Shown: piece by piece, positions 5,361 through 35,482 of the stretch | How the letters are laid out: every line of letters begins with the position of its first letter | How positions within the stretch are numbered: position 1 is the stretch's first letter | Assembly (NCBI RefSeq): GCF_016097555.1 | Contig: NC_054706.1 | Span: forward strand, 74,430,674 to 74,494,673 | DNA: 64,000 nt | Direction: 5' to 3' | Origin: Gigantopelta aegis | Lineage: Eukaryota; Mollusca; Gastropoda; Neomphalida; Peltospiridae | Made by a program: the position numbers and the translations under genes | The notes under the pieces: model-generated | Seen by the model: only the letters and a program-made list of their open reading frames with translations | The model's database searches: none | Told to the model about the DNA's origin: nothing

Positions 5361-8300
5361 ATGTCGGACGAAAATCCGGGTATCGAACTCTCTAAAGAAC
5401 AGGTTATATTGTATTTACAGATAGTTTTTATTTTAGTGTTAGTGCAAGAGTTGTTAGGACCGTTCAACAAATATTACGTGACGCTGCAGAGTTGGAATAG
5501 GGAATCATCATCATGTGTAATGCAGGGACAGGAAGTGTATGGTGTGTGTGTAACTCTGTATGTGTGTGTGTGTGTGTGTGTGTGGGGGGGATTAAGGCAC
5601 ATGACGCTGATCTAAGGTGCAGTGGATCGTAAGATCGATACCCGTTGGTGGACCCATTGGGTTTTTACCATATCTGAGAGGTGATATTAAAGTCTGTGGT
5701 ATAAGCTGTCCTGATTATAAACTATAAAGAATCCTTTAGTGCAGAGTGAACATTTTCATTTCATTTCAACTTATAGGCTAATTCGTGCTTATATATCCAT
5801 TTAAGGTTCAAGCACACTGTCCTGGGCAAACACCTCAGCTATCGGGCTCTGTCCAGGACAGTGGGTTGATAAGTGGTTAGTGAGAGAGAAGAGGGTGTAG
5901 TGGCCTTACACCTAACCATTGAGTCAATACTTTACTTATGTGCAGGGAGAGTTGCTTCCCTCAATTTAACAAATTTAAAATGGTGGGGAAATTGTTGTTG
6001 GAAGATATATTTTGTTAATAATGATGCAAGTTCTTAAATAGGGATTTAGTGAGTATGTATTATAGGTTATTTATTTTTGGTTTGTGTGTCCATTTGTTGC
6101 ACTATTTCATTTGAGAAATGGTTGAAACATGGTGCCACAAGTTTTGAATATCAGCTATATATATATATAGGGTATCATATATGTAACAATATCTGGATGT
6201 AGAAAGAACCACACTTTCTACGTCCCTTCGGACTAAGATCCCATCAATCCTTGCTGCTGTGGATGGGACATAGCCCAGTGGTAAAGCACTTGCCTGATGT
6301 GTGGTTAGTCTGGGATCAGTCCCCATTGGTGGACATGGGCTATTTTTTTGTTCCAGCCAGTGCACAATGACTGGTATATATCAACGGCCTTGGTATGTGC
6401 TATCAACCCTTGCAATTAAGAAAATGTCCACAGCAAAAAAACATGCAATTGAAAAAAAACTTGCCAAAAAAATGCCATGGACAATTAAAAACATTCTCGA
6501 TTGCTGTGAGCAGGGTTTGGCTTTCCTGTCTGTGGAATGGTGTATATAAAAGATTCTTTGATACTAATGGAAAAATGTAGGTTTCCTCTCTAAGACTATA
6601 TAAAAATTACCGGCCTCGGTGGCGTCGTGGCAGGCCATCGGTCTACAGGCTGGTAGGTACTGGGTTCGGATCCCAGTCGAGGCATGGGATTTTTAATCCA
6701 GATACCGACTCCAAACCCTGAGTGAGTGCTCCGCAAGGCTCAATGGGTAGGTGTAAACCACTTGCACCGACCAGTGATCCATAACTGGTTCAACAAAGGC
6801 CATGGTTTGTGCTATCCTGCCTGTGGGAAGCGCAAATAAAAGATCCCTTGCTGCCTGTCGAAAAAAGAGTAGCCTATGTGGCGACAGAGCGGGTTTCCTC
6901 TTTAAAACAGTGTCAAAATGAGCATATGTTTGACGTCCAATAGCCGATAATAAGATAAAAAATCAATGTGCTCTAGTGGCGTCGTTAAATAAAACAAACT
7001 TTACTTTATATAAAAATTACCAAATGCCAATGATTAATAAATCTGTGTGCTCTAGTGGTGTTGTGAAACAAACAAGCCCTTGCTGCTATTTTGTTACAGG
7101 ATAGCCTGAATACTTTATTAGAAAGCTGCATAGACTAAAGTTTGTTTATGACACCACTAGAGTACATTGATTAATTAATTATCGGCTGTTGGATATCAAA
7201 CATTTGGTAAAATGTTCTGACTTGTAGTCATCAGAGGAAACCAACTACATTTTTTCATTAGCAGCAAGGGATCTTTTATATGCACTTTTCCACAGGCAGA
7301 AAAGCACATACCACAGCCTTTGACCAGTTGTGGTGCACTGGTTGGAACGAGAAAGAACCCTGCGATGAAAGCACCTCAGGTGAGCACTCAACCGACCAAG
7401 CTATATCCCGCCCCGCTGCACAGACAATTTTAATTGCTCTTCAGTCAAGAGACATCTGGATGATCCACACACTACATGAAGAAACCTGATTGACTGTGTA
7501 TTTTGTGTATGACTTTATCATGTACTGTTACATATCAAATTTCATGGTGATTTATCAATTTTTGACGGAGTTATGACCCTTAAACTTAGGAGATATGAAA
7601 ATTTGTTTTCCCGACTTCTTTTCCAGAAATAGCTGATGTATTTTGTCATGCTGGGGTGTCGTTAAACATTCATTCATTCATTAATGTTTTCCAGAAGGCC
7701 TTGAGATATTAACCTGAAGTTTTGTGTATAGCTTTATCATGTACCGTTACAGATCAAGTTTCACTTTCATGGTGATTTACCCACTTTTCACAGAGGTTTG
7801 GCCCTTGAATTTAGGAGATATGAAAAATTGTTGAATCAGGTAGGGGGATGTGTATTGCTTAAGCAGTACTCGCAAAATGCTTGTTCAAGTTGTGGTGTCG
7901 TTAAAATGTTCTTATGTTTTCATTTATGTATTTAGTTCTTTTGTCACTCATGTTGCTGACACTTTATGAATCTTTTGTGAATGCATTTATGTCATTAACC
8001 AAACATTCCTCTTATTACATAAAGTTTATTTTTACATTGACTCTAATATAAAATATTGTTATATTTAAAACAGATTTTTTCTGTCTGAAATGTTATTTTC
8101 AGGTTTGTAAAGCAGTTGAGGCGTTACGTGCTCTAATCAAACAAAAAGAGAATGTGAAAAACCTGCTTGATGAGAGTGAAAAAGTAAACCTACAGTTTTG
8201 TTTCAAGAAAATACCCAATACCAAGAATGCTACAATAAAAATGTAAGGACTGTCGAGAAATATTGCTGTTGAAACACAACTCTTACAAAGCATGGTAAAC

Positions 8301-18985: not shown

Positions 18986-21900
18986 TCAGTAGAGGATCTG
19001 TTCACTCTTGATGTTTGGGCAGAAGTTGTAGTTTCTCGACGAAGCGCTGATGGCCTTGTTGGACAGTACGAGCTCCAGCTCCTGCATGTCGGTGAGTCGC
19101 CGCACGTCCTTGTCCTTCCGCACGATCGTGTCAGGCAGTTTGCGCACCTTACACACAAGCTTCCCGTCCACACGCAGCTCCGAGCACAGCAGCTTGAAGA
19201 GTGCGTCAAACGTCAGCATGTCTCGGTTTAGTTCCACCTCGATGAAATCCTTCTCGTCAGAGTTCGCTATTCTTGCTTTGAAGACTACTTCTGTAGAAAT
19301 AAAGAAACAAATTGATGTAAGTTATTTATCCTGTAGTCATATTAACTTTCCTAAAAAAACAGTGTAAACATAGATGCTTATCCACATACTCATATCATGT
19401 TTTGTGACTAAGACTTGGTGGCTTTTATAACAAACATTCTGAGAAAAGAAAAGTTTGTTTTGTTTTAACGACACCAGTGGAGCACATCATCAGCTGTTGG
19501 ATTTCAAAAAACAATCTGAGAGTACTGCCAAAGTAATACATGTCCTCTACTGAGCTCGACAAATTTTCTTATCTCCGAAGTTCAAGAGCCATAACTCTTT
19601 GTAAAAAATAAATTTGATCAAAACATACAGTAACCATTGTCAGCTTGTTAATAAGCGAGTTAAAATATATATTGACTAAAGGTCACGCCACACGACACGA
19701 GTGCCTGTTCGAGAGCAGCCAAGTGTGACAAGCCCAACGCTACAATTGTATCAGTTGCTATGCAAGTCTCATATCACATGGTATTGCCAATGAATGTCGG
19801 GCACTCTGCTTGTTACTGGGCGAGTTGATAAATTAAATAAATGCACTAACCATTGTCTAGCACTCTGCTTGTTACTGGGTGAATTGATAAATTAAATAAA
19901 TGCACTAACCATTGTCTGGCACTCTGCTTGTTACTGGGCGAGTTGATAAATTAAATAAATGCACTAACCATTGTCTGGCACTCTGCTTGTTACTGGGCGA
20001 GTTGATAAATTAAAGAAATGCACTAACCACTGTGTGGCATACAGCTTGTTACTGGACGAGTTGATAAATTAAATAAATGCACTAACCATTGTCTGGCACT
20101 CTGCTTTTTACTGGGTGAATTGATAAATTACAGAAATTCACTAACCATTGTCTGGCACACAGCTTGTTACTGGGCGAGTTGATAAATTAAATAAATGCAC
20201 TAACCATTGTCTGGCACTCTGCTTTTTACTGGGTGAGTTGATAAATTAAAGAAATGCACTAACCATTGTCTGGCACTCTGCTTTTTACTGGGTGAGTTGA
20301 TGAATTAAATAAATGCACTAACCATTGTCTGGCACTGCTATTTACTGGATGATTTGATAAATTAAAGAAATGCACTAACCACTGTGTGGCACACAGCTTG
20401 TTACTGGGTGAGTTGATAAATTAAATAAATGCACTAACCATTGTCTGGCACTCTGCTTTTTACTGGGCAAGTTGATAAATTAAAGAAATGCTCTAACCAT
20501 TGTCTGGCACTCTGCTATTTACTGGGTGAGTTGATAAATTACAGAAATTCACTAACCATTGTCTGGCACTCTGCTTTTTACTGGGTGAGTTGATAAATTA
20601 AAGAAATGCACTAACCATTGTCTGGCACTCTGCTTGTTACTGGGTGAGTTGATAAATTAAATAAATGCACTAACCATTGTCTGGCACTCTGCTATTTACT
20701 GGATGATTTGATAAATTAAAGAAATGCACTAACCACTGTGTGGCACACAGCTTGTTGCTGGGTGAGTTGATAAATTAAATAAATGCACTAACCATTGTCT
20801 GGCACTCTGCTTGTTACTGGGCGAGTTGATAAATTAAATAAATGCACTAACCATTGTCTGGCACTCTGCTATTTACTGGGTGAGTTGATAAATTACAGAA
20901 ATTCACTAACCATTGTCTGGCACTCTGCTATTTACTGGGCGAGTTGATAAATTAAAGAAATGCACTAACCACTGTGGCACACAGCTTGTTACTGGGCGAG
21001 TTGATAAATTAAATAAATGCACTAACCATTGTCTGGCACTCTGCTTTTTACTGGGTGAGTTGATAAATTAAATAAATGCACTAACCATTGTCTGGCACTC
21101 TGCTATTTACTGGATGATTTGATAAATTAAAGAAATGCACTAACCACTGTGTGGCACACAGCTTGTTGCTGGGTGAGTTGATAAATTAAATAAATGCACT
21201 AACCATTGTCTGGCACTCTGCTTGTTACTGGGCGAGTTGATAAATTAAATAAATGCACTAACCATTGTCTGGCACTCTGCTTTTTACTGGGTGAGTTGAT
21301 AAATTAAATAAATGCACTAACCATTGTCTGGCACTCTGCTTGTTGCTGGATGAGTGAAACTGTGCGTCGGTTCTCTCTGTTGAAAAGCGACATCGTTCTT
21401 TCGGCTATGCGGAAACTCGGGGTGTGACAAGTAGCTGGCAGTTATTGGCAGGGAGCTGTGTTTTGTCTCCACCGTTTCTGGATCTGAAATGGAAATCAAC
21501 AGACTACAGTCAGGGTTTTTTCTATTGCAGATAACATCTGCATTTAACTACCTTATTTCAACAGAGTACCATAAATTAAAAAAAAAAAAAGTACTAGCTG
21601 TGCATTTTTTTTTTTTTTTAAATCATCTTACTGACCCCTTTCCTTTCTCCTTGAATTCCATTTTATTTCTACCTAAACTGACAATTCCCATTTATCAACT
21701 TCTTTTGCTGTCCACCTCCACATACCAGTCAGTGTCTCCAATCAAAACATGTACTTTTCTCTTGTGACCACCTGTGCCACACATCAGCATACCAATAAAC
21801 CATACTTACTACAAAAAGTAATTCATTGTCAAACTTTATATCCATTATCTAGGAATCAATGAAATGAGTTTTTAGATTTCACAATACTCAATATCAAGAC

Positions 21901-24900
21901 AAAAAAATGGATCCTACAGTATTTGTTTGCAATGCAAGCTGTCATTAATTTGTGATACAAGTACTAGTGTGTGATGCAGACAAGAGGTACTAGTGTGTGA
22001 TGCACACAGTGGTACTAGTTTGTGACAGACACAATGGAACTATTTTGTGATTTAGATAGAAGTTTGTTTTGTTTAACAACACCACTGGAGCACATCGATT
22101 AATTAATCATCGGCTATTGGATGTCAAACATTTGGTCATTCTGACGCGTAGTCATCAGAGGAAACACGCTACATGTTTTCTAAGCAGCAAGGAATGTTTA
22201 ATATCCACTTTCCCACACACAGGAAAACACATACCATGTCCTTTGTCCAGTTGTGGTGCACTAGTTGAAATGAGAACAAATCCAATCAGCTGAATGGATC
22301 CACTGAGGTGGTTCGATCCTGCGATGTAAGCACCTCAAGTGATTTAGATAGTGGCAGTAGTTTGTGATATAGACAGTGGTACTAGTGTGTGATGAACAGT
22401 TGTACCAGTTTGTGATACAGACACAATGGAACTATTTTGTGATTTAGATAGAGGCAGTAGTTTGTGATATAGACAGTGGTACTAGTGTGTGATGAACAGT
22501 TGTACCAGTTTGTGATACAGACACAATGGAACTATTTTGTGATTTAGATAGTGGCCGTAGTTTGTGATATAGACAGTGGTACTAGTGTGTGATGAACAGT
22601 TGTACCAGTTTATGATACAGACACAATGGAACTATTTTGTGATTTAGATAGTGGCAGTAGTTTGTGATATAGACAGTGGTACTAGTGTGTGATGAACATT
22701 TGTACCAGTTTGTGATACAGACACAATGGAACTATTTTGTGATTTAGATAGTGGCAGTAGTTTGTGATATAGACAGTGGTACTAGTGTGTGATGAACAGT
22801 TGTACCAGTTTGTGATACAGACACAATGGAACTATTTTGTGATTTAGATAGTGGCAGTAGTTTGTGATATAGACAGTGGTACTAGTGTGTGATGAACAGT
22901 TGTACCAGTTTGTGATACAGACACAATGGAACTATTTTGTGATTTAGATAGTGGCAGACAGTGATACTAGTTTGTGATTCAGACAGACAATGAAACTAGT
23001 TTGTGATTCAGACAGTGGTGAGTACAGTAAGTGATGCAGACAGTGGTACTAATTTTTTATTCAGACAATGGTACTATTTTGCTATTCAGACAGTGGCAGT
23101 GGTTTGTGATAGGTGATAATGTAGTCCTTCACACAGGGAATACCGTTTCCTTACTATGGTATTTACTCAGTAATTTATTTCTAAACCGATCGTTTTCAAT
23201 AATGGCACACAATTTAAAAAACATTTTTAATTTCCAAAACACTGTTACTTGTTTATGTCAAATCAAATTGAAATTATTTACGAAAAACAATGTTAATGGA
23301 GGCTGGGAAAGACTATAGTATGTAATACAGGCTGTGGTATTAGTGTATGATGCAGACAGCGATACTAGTTTGTCAGGCAAACAGTGATACACGTTTGTGA
23401 CACTAGTCTGTGATGTATATCTTGTTAGTCATGAAAACAGTGTTAAATTACTTTAAATACCTATTCCTAAAATCTTCAGAATGTCTTTGTTACTAGTCAG
23501 CTGACTTGCTTGACAACCATCTTTGTTGAGAACAGTTTTGTCTGCCCCATGCTCAGTGAGATAAGACACAACAGCAGCATGGTTTCGTTTTGCTCCCCAG
23601 TGCAAAGCTGTCCTGCAATATCAAAAATAAATTTTTGTACCCATATTATATATTACCCATAGTACAATAAAATGGTTTTATCTATTAATTCTACATTCCG
23701 ATTAGTTGTTTTCTTTAGAAACATCTAATAAAATTGTCTATGATGCAGACAGTGGTACTAGTCTGTGATGCAGTCAGTTGTACTAGTCTGTGATGCAGTC
23801 AGTTGTACCAGTCTGTGATGCATACAGTTGTACTAATCTGTGATGCAGTCAGTTGTACCAGTCTGTGATGCATACAGTTGTACTAATCTGTGATGCAGTC
23901 AGTTGTACCAGTCTGTGATGCATACAGTTGTACTAATCTGTGATGCAGTCAGTTGTACCAGTCTGTGATGCAGTCAGTTGTACTAATCTGTGATGCAGTC
24001 AGTTGTACTAGTATGTGATGCAGTCAGTTGTACTAATCTGTGATGCAGTCAGTTGTACTAGTATGTGATGCAGTCAGTTGTACTAATCTGTGATGCAGTC
24101 AGTTGTACCAGTCTGTGATGCATACAGTTGTACTAATCTGTGATGCAGTCAGTTGTACTAGTCTGTGATGCAGTCAGTTGTACTAATCTGTGATGCAGTC
24201 AGTTGTACTAGTATGTGATGCAGTCAGTTGTACTAATCTGTGATGCAGTCAGTTGTACTAGTATGTGATGCAGACAGTAGTACTAAAGTAGTCGGAAATA
24301 GAATTTAAAAAAAATGGTCAATTATTTCTTACATATTAAACAGACAAGTAAATATTTTGTAAATATCTATTTAATGATAGTCTACCTAATTTAGCATTTA
24401 CTTGTTTTGGCTCTCATTGATGTCAGGGTTGAAAATTAGCAGTTGCCCAGTCGCCTGTGGCGACCTTTATTGACTAAGGGTGACTAAGAATTTTACAAAG
24501 GTAGTCCATTGGGCGACCATCGATTTTAGGGTCTGGCGAGTATAGTATCAGAAACACACTGATAATGAATCGAATCTGGCAGCAGGAGACATAGAACATG
24601 TTCTATATTTTGACAGCGCCAACATAATGAATAAAGATAAAATTCATATAAAACATTAATTTATTAAGTTTTAAACGCATACCATCTCAAATAACATTTT
24701 ATTTGGGGTAAAAGTGCAGTGTAAATTAAAACAAAAATTTGTTACAAATTACCATCAAACTGTATAGATTAAAAAAAAATTCTCTCTGATACATTGTGTT
24801 ACGGAAATTGATGAAACATCCAAGGTAATCTAAATGGCACAACTGTAATACATGATCAGGGACATATCGCTGCACAAAGCAGAGGCGAATGGGCATTTAG

Positions 24901-27900
24901 TAAAAGAGTGGATGATTCCATGGATCTCTATCTAGCGCCTCGTCTATATAACAGCCACTCCCGGGGAAATCATTTGCTGGGGATTTCACTCCTCTTGCAT
25001 CGCCACAAAGTTTATTCCATCACTCCTGAATCGCCACAAAGATGACTGCCACTCACAGTCTAGTTTACTAAAGCACGCGCAGTTCTAACTTTAGTCATTT
25101 TGTACTGTATTATCTTTTACCCTATATTAAAAATGAGATTTAATATGTATAATTTAATGGTACTTTGTAAAGAAAAGTATTTATTAATACTGGAATTTTT
25201 TTCAGTTTGTTTTTTAATTTTTGTATATGAATTTTAACTTTATTCATTATAAAGTTAAATGCCAATCATCGGTTTTATTTAACGCAAACAGACTATATAC
25301 GGTGAGCACATGGTTACTATTCAACAAAAAACCCACTCTAGTTTTGATTTTGCCGGTGCAGTTAAATTCCAATGTGATAATTGGAGGCTAGTTGAATTTG
25401 AGAAGGGCTACTGCGACTATGGTTTTTATGTTAATTTTCAACCCTGTGATGTACAAGGTGGTGTTTACTCTTGAAATTAAAAGAAGGATGTCAGTAAACA
25501 GGTGATTTGTGCACTTTATTGGAACAGACTTAACAAATTTGGGTCAACATGTGTCAATTTCATTGCTGTTACAATATGTGAGGGACTGCTGATGACAGTT
25601 TACCCCTATCCCTCTCCAAAACAAAATATTTGTACACATTTATAATTAACTTTTGAGGAAAACTGTCAAGAGCCATTCTGAGTTTGTGATCTATTATACC
25701 GGTATTAATTGTTCTATCTCAAAGTTACATAATGGCAGCTATTGCAAATCATGTCTTATTAAATTTTGCTTTAACATTTAAAGACAACACCTTTAACTAT
25801 ATGCCCATAAATGATTATAGGAAATAATTTTATCTGACACCTTTATTTTAATTTCAAGAGTAAACAACACCACAAAGAGAGCCCAAACAAGTAAATGCTA
25901 AATTAGGAAGAGTATCATTAAATAGGTATGGTATTTACTAAATATTTACTTGTCAGTTTAAATAATTGCCGAAAATCATTTTTATTCTATTTCCGACACT
26001 ACTTTAGTTTATTATGCAATCAGTTATACTAATGTGTGATGCAGACAGTAGTACCCATCTGTGATGCAGACAGTTGCACTAATATGTGATGCAGCTAGTT
26101 GTACTAGTCTGTGATGCACAGTTGTACTAGTCTGTGATGCACAGTTGTACTAGTCTGTGATGCAGTCAGTTGTACTAATCTGTGATGCACAGTTGTACTA
26201 GTCTGTGTTGCACAGTTGTACTAGTATATGATGCAGACTGTAGTACTAATCTGTGATGCACAGGCGTACTAGTCTGTGATGCACAGTTGTACTAGTCTGT
26301 GATGCAGACAGTTGTACTAGTATGTAATGCAGACAGTTGCACTAGTCAGTGATGCAGACTAGTACTAATCTGTGATGCACAGTTGTACTAGTCTGTGATG
26401 CAGTTGCACTAGTCTGTGATGCAGTTGTACCAGTCTGTGATGCACAGTTGTACTAGTATGTGATGCAGACAGTTGTACTAGTATGTGATGCAAACAGTAG
26501 TACTAATCTGTGATGCACAGTTGTACTAGTTTGTGATGCAGACAGCTGTACTAGTCTGTGATGCAGCTGCACTAGTCTGTGATGCAGATAGTACTAATCT
26601 GAGATGCACAGTTGTACTAGTTTGTGATGCAGTTGCACTAGTCTGTTGTACTAGTATGTGATGCAGACAGGTGTACTACTATGTGATGCAGTTCTACTAG
26701 TATGTGATGTAGACTGGTACTAGTCTGTGATGCAGACAGTTGTACTTGTCTGTGATGCAGACAGTTGTACTAGTATGTGATGTAGAGTTGTATGTGATGC
26801 AGACAGTGGTACTAATATATGATGCAGTTGCACTAGTCTGTGATGCAGACAATTGTACTAGTTTGTGATGCAGACAGTTGTACTAATCTGTGATGCATAC
26901 AGTTGCACTAGTATGCGATGCAGACAGTTGTACTAGTCAGCGATGCAGACAGTTGTATTAGTATGTGATGCAGACATTTTTGTACTAGTATGTGATGCAG
27001 ACAGTTTTGTACTAGTTTGTGATGCAGACAGTTTTGTACTAGTTTGTGATGCAGACAGTTGTACTAGTATGTGATGTAGACAATTGTACTAATCTGTGAT
27101 GCATACAGTTGCACTAGTATGCGATGCAGACAGTTGTACTAGTCAGCGATGCAGACAGTTGTATTAGTATGTGATGCAGACATTTTTGTACTAGTATGTG
27201 ATGCAGACAGTTTTGTACTAGTTTGTGATGCAGACAGTTTTGTACTAGTTTGTGATGCAGACAGTTGTACTAGTATGTGATGTAGACAATTGTATGCAAT
27301 GCAAACATTGGTACTATTATGTGATGCAGACAGTTGTACTAGTATGTCATGCATACCATTGTACTAGTATGTGATGCAGACAATTTTATACTAGTCTGTG
27401 ACATTGTGATGCAGAGTTGGACTTGACTGTGGTGGTTTTGTGATGCAGACAGTTGCACGTTTTTGTGATGCAGACAGTGGTACTAGTCTGTGATGCAGAC
27501 AGTGGTACTAGTCTGTGATGCAGACAGTGGTACAAGTCTGTGATGCAGATAGTGGTACTAGTCTATGATGTAGACAGTGGTACTAGTCTGTGATGCAGAC
27601 AGTTGTACTAGTCTGTGATGCAGACAGTTGTACTAGTCTGTGATGCAGACAGGTGTACTAGTATGTGATGCAGACAGTTGTACTAGTCTGTGATGCAGTC
27701 AGTTGTACTAGTATGTGATGCAGACAGTTGTATCAGTCTGTGATGCAGACAGTTGTGCTAGTCTGTGATGCAGACAGTTGTATCAGTCTGTGATGTAGAC
27801 AGTTGTACTATTCTGTGATGCAGACAGTAATACTAGTCTGTGATGTAGACAGTTGTACTAGTCTGTGATGCAGACAGATGTACTAGTCTGTGATGCAGAC

Positions 27901-29304
27901 AGTGGTACTAGTCTGTGCTGTAGACAGTTGTACGAGTCTGTGATGCAGACAGTTGTACCAGTCTGTGATGTAGACAGTTGTACTAGTTTGTGGTGCAGAC
28001 AGTGGTACTAGCCTGTGATGCAGACAGATATACTAGTCTGATGCAGACAGTGGTACTAGTATGTGATGCAGACAGTGACACTAGTCTGTGATGCAGACAG
28101 TGGTACTAGTTTGTGATGCAGACAGTTGTACTAGTCTGATGCAGACAGTGGTACTAGTCTGTGATGCAGACAGGGGTACTAGTCTGTGATGCAGACAGTG
28201 GCACTAGTCTGATGCAGACAGTGGTACTACTATGTGATGCAGTTGCACTAGTATGTGATGCAGAGTTGTACTAGTCTGATGCAGACAGTGGTACTAGTAT
28301 GTGATGCAGACAGCTGTACTAGTCTGTGATGCAGACAGTGATACTAGTCTGTGATGTAGACAGTTGTACTAGTTTGTGATGCAGACAATTGTACTACTCT
28401 GTGATGCAGACAGTGGTACTAGTCTGTGATGCAGACAGTTGTACTAGTCTGTGATGCAGACAGTTGTACTAGTCTGTGATGTAGACAGTTGTACTAGTCT
28501 GTGATGCAGACAGTTGTACCAGTCTGTGATGTAGACAGTTGTACTAGTCTGTGATGCAGAGTGATACTAGTCTGTGATTTAGACAGTTGTACTAGTTTGT
28601 GATGCAGACAGTGGTATTAGTCTGTGATGCAGACAGTGGTACTAGTTTGTGATGCAGACAGTTGTACTAGTATGTGATGCAGACAGTGGTACTACTATGT
28701 GATGCAGTTGCACTAGTATGTGATGCAGACAGTGGTACTAGTTTGTGATGCAGACAGTGGTACTAGTCTGTGATGCACAGTTATACTAGTCTGTGATGCA
28801 GACGGTGGTACTAGTTTGTGATGGAGACAGTTGTACTAGTTTGTGATGCAGACAGTTGTACTAGTTTGTGATGCACATTGTGGTACTAATTAGTGGTGCA
28901 GCCCCTCCCCATGCAAGTTATTTTAGGCTAGGTTATGTGAATTGTTTACTATAAGAATCAGTGAAAAAATATACATTGTGGTAACTTTTAATTTCTGTTA
29001 TTAAGCATTGTCTGTACTTAGTGTTATTTTATCAATGTCACGAAAAGTTATATTTCCACTGCACCTCCCACCAAACTGCTTATATTCTATTGCAAACCAT
29101 ATTGGTTTGGTTATGTTTTTTTGTGTTCTGTATGGCAGTTTATAAAGTAAAATAATATTTTAATAATACTTCTAACCATCCGTTTATTTTGTTTTGTGAA
29201 TTGACATTAACATGCTTCACTTCAACCAAAGTTTTTAGAGATTCCGTGTCGCCGACACATGATGCCTCGCGTAGTTCTTCTTCTAAGTCTTGTATTGCGT
29301 CCAT
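18986..29304 (-). CDS. ANKRD40: ANKRD40-like ankyrin repeat protein
   Basis: Four coding exons on the minus strand: 29177..29304, 23461..23612, 21322..21483, 18986..19290, with consistent GT-AG junctions, total 248 residues. Residues about 1-42 (MDAIQDLEEELREAS, NVNSQNKINGW) and 43-93 (TALHWGAKRNHAAVVSYL, EHGADK, QLTSNKDILKILGI) form the two N-terminal ankyrin repeats of ANKRD40. Residues 94-147 are a variable linker (ASYLSHPEFPHS resembles the human NYLANPAFPF). Residues 148-248 match the conserved C-terminal domain: VVFKARIANSDEKDFIEVEL, KVRKLPDTIVRKDKDVRRL and QELELVL. The human protein has 368 residues; the linker is much shorter here. Its biochemical role is poorly known; ankyrin repeats imply protein binding. 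All three introns carry large tandem arrays. The start is the first Met and lies 127 bases from a transposon. Confidence 0.93.
19520..19675 (-). repeat. Reversed copy of the 7480-type dispersed repeat
   Basis: AGTACTGCCAAAGTAATACA and TTATCTCCGAAGTTCAAGAG are the reverse complement of landmarks at 7800..7880 and 17820..17895 (GCAGTACTC, TTTAGGAGA). Confidence 0.55.
19795..21346. repeat. 59-bp minisatellite (about 26 copies) in ANKRD40 intron 3
   Basis: Unit landmarks: GAGTTGATAAATTAAATAAA, TGCACTAACCATTGTCTGGC, ACTCTGCTTGTTACTGGG. The unit next to exon 3 includes the exon's last bases and its splice donor, so every unit carries a copy of that donor on the minus strand (CAGACAATG|GTTAGTG). 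Subtypes (GTGTGGCACACAGC versus GTCTGGCACTCTGC; AAATAAATG versus AAAGAAATG or ACAGAAATT) alternate, and a multi-unit block near 20690..20820 recurs near 21110..21240, showing higher-order duplication. Confidence 0.95.
21960..23410. repeat. 100-bp minisatellite and related 25-bp repeats in ANKRD40 intron 2
   Basis: From 22341 to about 22950 a unit of exactly 100 bases recurs about six times (GATTTAGATAGTGGCAGTAG, GACAGTGGTACTAGTGTGTG, AGTTGTACCAGTTTGTGATA, CAGACACAATGGAACTATTT). Each 100-base unit is itself made of four diverged copies of the roughly 25-base TACTAGTNTGTGATNCAGACAGT motif that fills intron 1. Flanks to 21960 and 23410 hold looser copies. Confidence 0.92.
22059..22338 (-). mobile_element. 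SINE inserted in the intron-2 array
   Basis: Minus-strand SINE: tail GTTTGTTTTGTTTAACAACA at 22062, then CACATCGATTAATTAATCAT, body GCAGCAAGGAATG, head GGTTCGATCCTGCGATG (B box). Flanked by the 12-base direct repeat GTGATTTAGATA (22047..22058 and 22339..22350), a target-site duplication formed inside an array unit. Confidence 0.85.
23740..24283. repeat. 25-bp minisatellite, left block (ANKRD40 intron 1)
   Basis: About 22 copies of TACTAGTCTGTGATGCAGTC plus AGTTG, arranged as alternating subtypes (TACTAATC, TACCAGTC, TACTAGTA), with repeated two- and four-unit blocks. It is the same array as 26015..28890, split by a transposon. Confidence 0.92.
24286..26004. mobile_element. TA-target element with ~160-bp inverted repeats, itself hit by another element
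   Basis: Ends AAGTAGTCGGAAATAGAAT and ATTCTATTTCCGACACTACTT are complementary, with TA at 24284-24285 and 26005-26006. The right arm spans about 25845..26004. The left arm is in two pieces, 24286..24423 and 25453..25490 (TGGTGTTTACTCTTGAAATT pairs with AATTTCAAGAGTAAACAACA), because the element 24424..25446 landed in it. No transposase frame. Confidence 0.85.
24424..25446. mobile_element. CAGGG-ended element nested in the left arm of 24286..26004
   Basis: Starts CAGGGTTGAAAATTAGC and ends GTTAATTTTCAACCCTG, flanked by the direct repeat TGATGT (24418..24423 and 25447..25452). It holds no recognisable protein. Together with 8879..9059, 37406..38859 and 40462..41539 it belongs to a group with CAGGG termini and 5-6-bp duplications. 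Confidence 0.85.
26015..28890. repeat. 25-bp minisatellite, right block (ANKRD40 intron 1)
   Basis: More than 100 copies of TACTAGTCTGTGATGCAGAC plus AGTTG, with frequent unit-length changes (missing AGACAG, missing GTG). A larger block is duplicated: about 26880..27080 recurs almost exactly at about 27086..27290. Towards 28890 units become more uniform. Confidence 0.95.
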
Positions 29305-29430
29305 AATGATTGAAATTTAAAAGTAAAAAAATTGATTTAAAAAAAAACTGATGGAAAAAAATTGACAAAATTAATACTAAAACACGTCAGCAACTGAAAC
29401 ACATTTTTCACCACTAGACCACATGGGTTC

Positions 29431-30488
29431 TACTAATTACCGACAACAACCGACAATTACCGACAACAACCGATAAATACCGACAATAGCCTCAAAATTA
29501 CCGTCAACAACAAAAAAGCACTTCCAAGCTAACCACCCGATCTAATTTAGCGACCAAATTTAATGAGTAGAATTTTTTTTATTAATTAGAGATGCGCATA
29601 AAAATTTTAAAGCCCTATTATTTAATTTTTGGATTTAAATTTCAAAATTGTCCGCTTAATTATTTTTTTCTGTCCCGGGACAAGCCCCTGGCTATCCAGA
29701 GACAAGCCCCGGGACGGACATGCTCGAAACTCTAGTGGTATATGAGCATGTAAAAATTATTCTTTAAAGATACTTTAAAAACAGCGTGTCTATTCTATTC
29801 TTAATTTTTTTGGTGTAGTCTGATTCATAAAACTATAAAAATAAAAAATAAAAAATTAATACTTATCTAACATTAGGGCAGACAGGCAGGCAAAATTATG
29901 TTGTAACCAGACTGAAAAAGTTCTTGGTTTTTGTCTCTCCATTGTGGAGTGACGACATTTAACGTTAAAAGTTTCGGATTTGGATCAGTTTCTCACAAAT
30001 TATAAGTCCTAGGACTTGAAACTTGGTCTATAGTTGCACCTAGGGAAGTTTATTACAGTGCACCAAAAAGGTTTATTGTAGAAAAGAGACATCTAATTCT
30101 GCAGAATGTTTGTTTGGATATAGTTACAGATATACTGTTTTTAAAGTATCTTTAAAGAATAATTTTTACATGCTCATATACCACTAGAGTTTCGAGCATG
30201 TCCGTCCCGGGGCCTGTTTCTGGATAGCCAGGTGCTTGTCCCGGGTCAGAAAAATAAATTAAGCGGACAATTTTGAAATTTACATCCAAAAATTAAATAG
30301 TAGGCCTTTAAAATTTTGATGCGCATCTCTAATTAATATAATTAATAAAGAAACTTCTACTCATTAAATTTGGTCGCTAAATTAGATCGGGTGGTTAGCT
30401 TGGAAGTGCCTTTTTTTGTTGTTGACGGTAATTTTGAGGCTATTGTCGGTATTTATCGGTTGTTGTCGGTAATTGTCGGTAATTAGTA
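29431..30488. mobile_element. Inverted-repeat element next to the ANKRD40 start
   Basis: Two 352-base arms, 29433..29784 and 30135..30486, are reverse complements apart from scattered changes, with TA at 29431-29432 and 30487-30488. Ends read CTAATTACCGACAACAACCG. Within the arms ACCGACAACAACCGA-type motifs are iterated near the tips and TGTCCCGGGACAAGCCCC lies further in. The 350-base centre contains the palindrome AGTCCTAGGACT and no reading frame. It begins 127 bases upstream of the ANKRD40 start codon, so it probably lies in the promoter or 5' UTR. Confidence 0.88.
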
Positions 30489-30609
30489 GGACCGGACCAC
30501 ATTGCTGTCCGTATATTTGGAGTAATCTAGTCTAACCGTAACATATGTGGAAACCGATTATTTGAAGCAAAACTTGGGTCTAAAAGCTATATTTGAAAAT
30601 CACGGGAAT

Positions 30610-32022: not shown

Positions 32023-33002
32023 GTTACAGTAACAGATGGATTTATTCGCCCGATAGGTTAACACTTTAGACTCAACAGTTGACTGGTATTGGATTGTCTC
32101 TTTGCAGCGTAAGATTATATTCTGTTTTGAATAAACGAGTTTATTAAAACCGGTGGGTACCAGTCTTCAAAGATAGAAATACGCCATTTTGTTACAAAGA
32201 GTGGCAAGAGAGAAAAGTAATTTGTTCAAGAATGGCAGATACGCAATACATGCAAGAGCAACAGTTTCCAGACTCGAGACTTGGTAGCCATTTTTATTAC
32301 TAATTGTGTTATAATATCTACAAAGTATTTAAATTCTATCACAAATTGACATTAATCACGTTTATTTTAATGCCAAAAATTACTTTCAACATAACGAAAA
32401 CCGTCCTGTTAACAAGAAAAAATCAAAGGGCATGCTCAGATAAAGAATCCATGACGTTTCACCCCCAAGGCACTTAATCCCCAGTCAGTTCAACCCCAGT
32501 TTGACCTGTTCGCCTCATGGCATGCTCATGTTAGCATGAACCAATGATTTTTTAAAAATTCAAATAGGAAACTCATTGTTTGCATACATAATAGTATGGG
32601 TTTTAGAACATGAATGCTTTTTGTTTTAATGAAAAATTTGTTAAAAATTAATTTTTAACAAATTTTTGTATACGGCCGGTTGACGGACCTTTAAATATTT
32701 TTTTTCATTTTCTGTCCAAAAACCTGTATAATGAATATAATGAAGGTAACATGGCAATCATCCAAATAACTGGTGATTATTTTGTTTTTTTACATGTAAT
32801 ATGACCTCTAATCTGATTGAAAATGGAAACAAATAATATAAAGCAGAATTAAAATGGTTTTAAGTATCGTTTTACAATGATATATGCAAGCAAAAAGTCA
32901 CCATTTTCAGCGAAACAGACTACGTCTATATCTTTGGTTCCTCCATGTTCATGTTAGTGCATTATGATTATAGAATGCATGTGAAAAATGAACTGGTATG
33001 TA
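32023..33002. other. Intergenic, no gene recognised
   Basis: A short frame ATGGCAGATACGCAATAC starts at 32233 and runs into a GT after CTTG; see the rejected list. Otherwise AT-rich, with a perfect short inverted repeat AAAAATTTGTTAAAAATTAA near 32633..32665. Confidence 0.35.
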
Positions 33003-33417
33003 TACTAGTCCGAGTACTCTGACTGTAAGAGAGCTAGACGGACATTTGGACATAAACACGCTCTCATTACAGTCAGAGACCAACCTATGTATTTTTTTGG
33101 CAATTCCTGACTACCAAACGGTAGGCAACGAGTCCCGCTCTAATACCACAACAATCCTATGTTTGACGTCAAATACCTTTACATCAATCATTTTCGAGTT
33201 AAGTGATACAAAAAAATCCACATATTAATCACTAATACACTTACTACAGAAAGAAACCCGACAGCACCCACATTCAGCTACGCTTCGTGACACTCCGTCG
33301 CAACAATTGCAAAGCTCGGCGATCTATTTCGAGACATAGACCACGTGATCGCGCACTGGGCGATTCCGCCTTGTGCAGCAGTTACAGGGGCCGTCTCATA
33401 TCAAGCGAAGTTACAAC

Positions 33418-33590
33418 ATGGAAGAGTTGGCTAATGCCGTTTTGGATGAATTTGGATTTCATTACGTCATTAAACCAAAACAATTACACATTATTGATTC
33501 CATTTTGAATTTGAAGGATACATTTGGGTGTTATCGACAGGATACGGCAAAAGTATGTGCTACGTACTGCCTCCTCTTATGAAAGATAAA
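33418..33590 (+). pseudogene. RecQ-like (SF2) helicase N-terminal fragment in the transposon
   Basis: ATG at 33418 opens MEELANAVLDEFGFHYVIKP, followed by KQLHIIDSILNLKDTFG. The adjacent frame then gives VLSTGYGKSMCYVLPPLMKD up to a consensus donor (GTAAGT) at 33591. TGYGKS is a Walker A (motif I) of RecQ-like helicases, and the two pieces have the order and spacing of that family (K-x-Q ... D-x-F-x-V-L-P-T-G-Y-G-K-S). A one-base frame change separates them, so this copy is dead. No later helicase motif (DEAH, motif III-VI) was found in the core. Confidence 0.7.
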
Positions 33591-33854
33591 GTAAGTAGTA
33601 ATTTAATTTGATTATTTTATGTTTTATGAATTAGTCATTAGTACAGTAGTAGAGTGTGTGTGTGGGTTTTTTTTTCTCTCAACAATTACGTAACGCTCTT
33701 GAGGGGATGGGGTATCATAAGATGTATTCCGAGGCGTTAAGGGGAAGGATGGCAATGCTTGTTACTGCAAAATCAAAATTGAATCGGTGCATAGCTCATT
33801 CGATCTTTAAAACTTATCTTATAGTTGTTTTGCTATTCAGATCAAACTAAAAAA

Positions 33855-34135
33855 TATTGAAATTTGTTTTGTTCAACGACACCACTAGAGCACATTGATT
33901 AATTAATCACTAGCTATTGGATGTCAAACATTTGGTAACTCTGATATGAGTATTGGAGAAGAAACCCGCTACATTAGCAATGGATCTTTTATATGTACTT
34001 TCCCACAGGCCACTGACCAGTTCTGGTGCATTAGTTGGAACGACCAAGAAATCAATTGGTTGAATGGATCCATCGAGGTTGTTCGATCCTGCGACGCGAA
34101 CACTCAAACGACTGAGCTGAAACCCACTCCCTAAG
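33855..34135 (-). mobile_element. SINE inserted into the helicase-bearing element
   Basis: Minus strand: AATTTGTTTTGTTCAACGAC and CACTAGAGCACATTGATTAA at the tail, ATGGATCTTTTATATG in the body, GTTCGATCCTGCGACGCGAA (B box) at the head. It postdates the host element. Confidence 0.8.
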
Positions 34136-35341
34136 AAATATGCGGAAATGACTCAAATGTGAAACTGTGGTGTAATATCTCATTAAAAAGCAAAAAGAAA
34201 AATAAAGAAGAAAAAGGCGGTAGGATACTAGTAAATTAAGTAATAAAAATAGTTCAAATTTTGTTTTGGGTTGGTTGTAAGTATTCTGTTTGCTTAATAA
34301 ATAATTTCATATGAACGATCGTTTTATCCAAGCAAATGTAAATCACATATATGTATGGTAGTTAATAATTATCGACAATGAATTAACCTACGTAGAACAC
34401 AGCCCAATTGTTTTCAACAACTGAACAAAGACCGATTCTGTAACACAATACTCAATGATCAGTTGTAGACAAGAGTTCCGTCATAGTAGACAAGCTGACG
34501 CCTAGGGACCGATGGCGATGAGTTTCGCCGTATGCATGTATGGCCACAAATGACTGCCAGGTCCGATGTCGGGAATTAACCTGCTTATATCAGTTTGATG
34601 TTCAAGTACGCTACCACGATTTCTGATCAGGGCCACAAACTGTACTCAGAACGAGAGGGTGTGTGGGAGTTTTAAAAAAAGGTTTAGAACTTTTTTCAGC
34701 GTAGAATGTAGCCACAATTAATGAGATTACCCATCGGTACGCATTGGCAGTTAACAGTACGACAATGATATTTGTCGCTGATTTACAAGTTCTTTTTTGA
34801 CTGACGATTTGTTTATGAAAATAATAACCGCTTGATATGAGACGGCCCCTGTAACTGCTGCACAAGGCGGAATCGCCCAGTGCGCGATCACGTGGTCTAC
34901 GTCTCGAAATAGAACGCCGAGCTTTGCAATTGTTGCGACGGAGTGTCACGAAGCGTAGCTGAATGTGGGTGCTGTCGGGTTTCTTTCTGTAGTAAGTGTA
35001 TTAGTGATTAATATGTGGATTTTTTTGTATCACTTAACTCGAAAATGATTGATGTAAAGGTATTTGACGTCAAACATAGGATTGTTGTGGTATTAGAGCG
35101 GGACTCGTTGCCTACCGTTTGGTAGTCAGGAATTGCCAAAAAAAGACATAGGTTGGTCTCTGACTGTAATGAGAGCGTGTTTATGTCCAAATGTCCGTCT
35201 AGCTCTCTTACAGTCAGAGTACTCGGGCTAGTATGTATACATGTAGTTGTGGGCACGTAACTCCGCAAAAACTCCTGTACTGTGTCTGCTATGGATATTA
35301 CGCGAGTTTTGGCACAGTAACGTGTCCACAACTAGGGTCAG

Positions 35342-35482
35342 GGAAAAATATCCGCCCGGTCCCCCCTTCCCCTAACCCTAACCCTAACCCTAACTCCAAC
35401 CCTAGTCCTAACCCCAGCCATAACCCTAACCCTCAACTCTAACTAAAAATAATAATGGAGGGGACCGGGCGGATATTATACC
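35342..35482. mobile_element. 141-bp inverted-repeat element with telomere-type core
   Basis: Ends GGAAAAATATCCGCCCGGTC and the complement of GGTATAATATCCGCCCGGTC pair over about 23 bases with two mismatches. It is flanked by the 8-base direct repeat AGGGTCAG (35334..35341 and 35483..35490). The core from about 35366 to 35440 is mostly CCCTAA and its variants, the animal telomere repeat. An 8-bp duplication suggests hAT-type mobilisation. Confidence 0.75.

Follow-up and report, generated by a model that had tools for sequence, protein, structure and literature searches.

Structure of the element and its target site

The window considered here, a stretch of 64,000 nucleotides of contig NC_054706.1 from the gastropod Gigantopelta aegis (36.4% G+C, no N), holds at 33006-35230 an element that starts with TAG, ends with CTA and encloses, between long terminal inverted repeats, the beginning of a RecQ-family helicase gene (Table 1). 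Its 402-bp arms align without gaps and are reverse-complementary at 398 of 402 positions, the mismatches lying at 33009, 33091, 33322 and 33336 in left-arm coordinates. Of 20 ungapped inverted pairs that were listed across the window this one is the longest, and no inverted repeat of at least 18 nt was found inside the 1421-bp interior that it encloses. An initial annotation, made from the sequence, had called the arms exactly equal, which holds for their length, there being no insertion or deletion, but not for their sequence, given the four differing positions.

Flush with both arms stands GTATGTATAC, a perfect 10-bp direct repeat that occurs in the window at these two sites only. The initial annotation had taken TGTA for the target-site duplication, but those four bases are contained within the longer repeat. 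When the boundary was slid base by base through 12 positions, the flush repeat grew from 4 bp (TGTA) to 6, 8 and 10 bp and fell to 0 at the next position, and at the positions beyond this optimum it was at most 4 bp. The repeat is itself partly palindromic, and it is for this reason that the inverted repeat seems to extend into the duplication and was measured automatically as 412 bp. As a control for chance, pairs of positions were drawn at random from the window with 13 shifts allowed, and 144 of 199,364 had a flush direct repeat of at least 10 bp, a figure probably inflated by the tandem arrays of the window. More generally, a partly palindromic target site can mask a 10-bp duplication as an apparent 4-bp one and so point to the wrong lineage.

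Each arm also contains a subterminal imperfect palindrome that starts at its base 12 and whose halves, 18 and 19 nt long, enclose a 25-nt loop. The left-arm copy folds as DNA with z = -4.45, none of 200 shuffles folding equally well, and the two palindromes are possibly paired transposase-binding sites. A search with the 29-base arm tip, allowing up to nine mismatches, found no further copy in the window, and exact arm patterns had no match in viral contigs or prokaryotic genome contigs, which has little bearing on an animal transposon.

Remnant of a RecQ-family helicase gene

The helicase remnant, about 58 codons long, reads from an ATG at 33418, the 11th base counted inward from the left arm, to a consensus splice donor (AAA/GTAAGT, at 33591). 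Both endpoints are as initially annotated. The continuous frame that had been drawn between them is not: 37 codons follow the ATG in one frame, after which a frameshift leads into another frame that carries VLSTGYGKSMCYVLPPLMKDK, with helicase motif I, to the donor.

Joined by a single X that bridges the two frames, the piece matches NCBIfam TIGR00614 (RecQ family) at 2.6e-09 over profile positions 6-51 of 470, while the motif-I piece alone matches the same profile at 1.7e-04 and WRN in the PDB at 0.017. The TIGR00614 scores all fall short of the cut-offs curated for whole proteins, which is to be expected when about 50 of 470 positions are covered, and a match of the joined piece to Pfam DEAD (8.4e-04) is likewise under Pfam's curated cut-off. 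Against the PDB, the joined piece drew 41 distinct sequences at E up to 10, with RecQ best (1.3e-05) and WRN next; 36 are named as RecQ-family or plainly as "ATP-dependent DNA helicase", and the five weakest are DEAD-box RNA helicases. The remnant thus corresponds to the start of the RecQ core, with its Walker A motif in a RecQ context, and this motif I is the sole match to the pattern TG[YFAGS]GKS in the six frames of the window. The remaining helicase motifs and the C-terminal domains are missing from this deleted copy. In viral contigs, nine stretches fitted the pattern of the helicase peptide and none was confirmed by tblastn; a literature search on RecQ expansion in bivalves gave no match.

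Table 1. Features of the element at 33006-35230 and of its flanks (window coordinates; a point marks features without a strand).
Feature	Position	Strand	Description and basis
Left target-site duplication copy	32996..33005	.	GTATGTATAC; 10-mer search of window
Left terminal inverted repeat	33006..33407	+	402 bp, begins TAG; alignment with right arm
Subterminal imperfect palindrome, left arm	33017..33078	.	33017-33034 against 33060-33078; blastn, RNA fold and DNA fold
Remnant first coding exon, RecQ-family helicase	33418..33590	+	37 codons; shift of frame at about 33526-33530; motif I (TGYGKS) as far as donor
Consensus splice donor GTAAGT	33591..33596	+	Sequence
SINE-like insertion	33858..34130	-	tRNA-like head and conserved tail; blastn, alignment, flanking repeats
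Remaining interior, nature not recognised	34142..34828	.	Pfam scan of open stretches
Right terminal inverted repeat	34829..35230	-	402 bp, ends CTA; alignment with left arm
Subterminal imperfect palindrome, right arm	35158..35219	.	35158-35176 against 35202-35219
Right target-site duplication copy	35231..35240	.	GTATGTATAC; 10-mer search of window

A dispersed repeat and the remaining interior

Downstream of the donor lies a stretch resembling a short interspersed nuclear element (SINE), flanked by ATATTTTTTAG and ATATTTCTTAG, 11 bp each (33847-33857 and 34131-34141) and alike at 10 of 11 positions. The repeat recurs elsewhere in the window in seven blastn rows at or below 2.32e-08, and the six places that cover these rows were aligned, some of them holding the tail only. 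A-box-like and B-box-like stretches can be made out by eye in its tRNA-like head. ARAGORN reported no tRNA in the element, its single, undetermined call in the window being at 6613-6684, and an Rfam scan gave nothing that reached the gathering score. Because it combines dispersed copies in the window, a tRNA-like head and near-matching 11-bp flanks, this stretch is most simply read, from its sequence, as a tRNA-type SINE that would have inserted into the element and be foreign to its original form. It may resemble the tRNA-derived SINEs of molluscs. A stretch at about 34010-34132 that keeps the phase of the donor and precedes an AATAAA was considered as a second coding exon but set aside, since blastn and alignment assign most of it to this dispersed repeat.

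For the rest of the interior, the longest open stretch in each frame was listed for 33600-33850 and for 34134-34828, 12 in all. Eight of the 12, among them all six from 34134-34828, were scanned against Pfam and none matched a family at E up to 1, and a longer frame that overlaps the right arm likewise had no Pfam match.

Other features of the window

Four bases to the right of the right-hand duplication, a 91-bp imperfect palindrome (35244-35334; 36-nt arms, 81%) is perhaps a small miniature inverted-repeat transposable element, and a degenerate telomere-like CCCTAA array of 12 copies follows at 35370-35443. A second long-armed element occupies 29425-30494. Its arms, a gapped inverted pair at 29426-30493, are each about 359 bp long and align with 336 identities, 12 mismatches and 22 gap columns; its tips are GGGTTCTACTAATTACCGACA on the left and CGGTCCTACTAATTACCGACA on the right, and it has an 8-bp flush repeat, GACCACAT; no gene was recognised in it among open reading frames of at least 120 aa. 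Inverted arms at 24336-25961 (77 identities, 7 mismatches, 5 gap columns) have TTAA at their flanks, as piggyBac- or Kolobok-type elements do.

Several large tandem arrays are spread over 19795-28881; they include one at 19795-21355 with a unit of 59 bp, one at 22339-22957 with a unit of 100 bp, and repeats of 25 bp both at 23736-24285 and at 26021-28881. Towards the left end of the window, inverted array-like arms at 1357-2268 (140 identities, 23 mismatches, 21 gap columns) are made up of repeats like GTCATTTCGTACC and are adjoined by a low-complexity ATATATAC repeat. On the reverse strand, an exon-like frame at 2260-2931 matches Pfam PF06079, the apyrase (calcium-activated nucleotidase) domain, over its first part at 4.1e-30.

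Discussion

The element is a real, decayed, non-autonomous transposon. The initial annotation described a shortened transposon that has long terminal inverted repeats and contains the first part of a RecQ-type helicase together with an intron donor; this is borne out by the arms, the TIGR00614 match and the GTAAGT donor. With a probability of roughly 70%, we further assign it to the AcademH type, as an internally deleted derivative of a cut-and-paste DNA transposon. AcademH had been raised at the outset and left open. A TGTA duplication would have spoken against it, AcademX duplications being 3 or 4 bp long and those of AcademH 9 or 10 bp, lengths that are related to the presence of a helicase or a nuclease in the excerpted account of PMC10045372. 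The corrected 10-bp duplication strengthens this lead, as helicase and duplication length both fit AcademH as described there. Also in its favour, Academ elements are well represented among bivalves (PMC10294476, in excerpt). AcademH is accordingly the best fit, and not a proven membership.

Several points weigh against this assignment. A single copy was seen on searching the window and viral and prokaryotic contigs, and the likeness to AcademH consists of duplication length and the presence of a helicase. An Academ transposase was not recognised in the 8 of 12 longest interior stretches that were scanned against Pfam, although Pfam may not recognise one. The 37-residue piece taken alone matched nothing, TIGR00614 included, and the RecQ call therefore rests on motif I and on the stretch joined across the two frames.

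If the assignment to AcademH is right, a complete parent would have a promoter and transposase-binding sites within its arms; besides encoding an Academ DDD/E transposase, it would carry a gene for a RecQ-like helicase that contains introns and is read inward from the left arm. Transposase supplied by such a copy would cut at the arm tips TAG...CTA; the excised element would then be joined to target ends with a 10-bp stagger, repair of which would produce the duplication. Most of the helicase, along with any transposase, would have been lost to an internal deletion that either preceded or followed insertion, though this copy may never have had a transposase, and frameshift and SINE insertion would represent later decay. 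Judged by its sequence, the element as it stands can make neither helicase nor transposase.

Elements of the Mutator-like (MuDR/MULE) superfamily, too, typically have long arms and make duplications of about 8-10 bp. The best rival, which we nonetheless think unlikely, is a non-autonomous element of this kind that took up part of a host RecQ gene, as plant Pack-MULEs do with gene fragments. It would explain the 402-bp arms and the 10-bp duplication, and the window contains another long-armed element, that at 29425-30494, with an 8-bp flush repeat and no recognised gene; Mutator-like elements were, moreover, present in all the mollusc genomes analysed in one survey (PMC10294476, in excerpt). 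Yet the helicase piece opens with an ATG next to the arm, matches the RecQ core at its very beginning (profile position 6 of 470) and reads inward, whereas a capture at random would be likelier to yield an internal portion, and AcademH accounts for helicase and duplication length together (PMC10045372, in excerpt).

A shortened helicase-bearing transposon of some superfamily or lineage other than AcademH, whether known or undescribed, seems quite improbable to us. The pairing of a RecQ helicase with a transposon has arisen elsewhere, in KolobokH (fungi only) and in the rhodophyte Kolobok-1_CCri, according to excerpts of PMC9587614, and neither transposase nor arm tips could be matched to anything here. 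Against such a lineage stands the fit of the duplication to the length described for AcademH (PMC10045372, in excerpt), and Kolobok in particular was rejected because its duplications are TTAA (PMC9587614, in excerpt) and the target site here is GTATGTATAC. In the same vein, we regard it as equally improbable that the parent was an undescribed helicase transposon that united 402-bp arms, subterminal palindromes, an inward RecQ gene and 10-bp duplications with a non-Academ transposase; were it so, RecQ and a transposon would have been brought together independently once more, beside the AcademH and Kolobok lineages. Very improbable is an origin other than transposition, by inverted duplication or by an assembly fold-back, either of which would have taken in part of a host RecQ gene in decay. 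Misassembly can give rise to long inverted repeats, and the single copy seen on searching the window and viral and prokaryotic contigs would suit such an origin, but both arm tips directly adjoin a perfect 10-bp direct repeat, the arms differ at four positions, and the 1421 bp between them are free of inverted repeats of at least 18 nt.

If the element does belong to AcademH, it adds one more animal family in which arms, duplication and helicase start can be cleanly read. The position of the helicase start codon directly at the arm suggests that arm and promoter may form one unit. What the helicase does for a cut-and-paste transposon cannot be told from a broken copy, but the arms offer a probe for an intact relative, and therein lies the chief value of the element.

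Comparison with known transposons

AcademH is reportedly found in animals and fungi, to go by the title of a 2020 paper by Kojima (Mob DNA 11:15). Of the features compared here, a duplication of 9-10 bp, as in AcademH, was found in the one copy at hand, as were the long arms with a duplication of about 8-10 bp that characterise Mutator-like elements. Mutator-like elements, Pack-MULEs included, share these traits and may contain internal gene fragments; unlike them, the present element has no MuDR transposase that we could see, and its helicase piece starts at an ATG beside the arm. KolobokH and Kolobok-1_CCri resemble it in carrying a RecQ helicase (PMC9587614, in excerpt). DEAD and Helicase_C domains are attributed to AcademH, KolobokH or Helitron in the excerpted text of PMC10799480. 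Among the molluscs studied in the survey cited above, Academ elements are almost confined to bivalves, and 100 curated Academ consensus elements have a mean length of 5565 bp (PMC10294476, in excerpt). AcademX, although of the same Academ superfamily as AcademH, differs in having a nuclease in place of the helicase and duplications of 3-4 bp (PMC10045372, in excerpt); it does not fit here, as the longest flush repeat is 10 bp and TGTA lies inside it. From AcademH itself the present copy differs in being internally deleted, with no transposase seen, and it resembles AcademH, a helicase-bearing DNA transposon with a 9-10 bp duplication (PMC10045372, in excerpt), in combining a 10-bp duplication with the start of a RecQ-family helicase.
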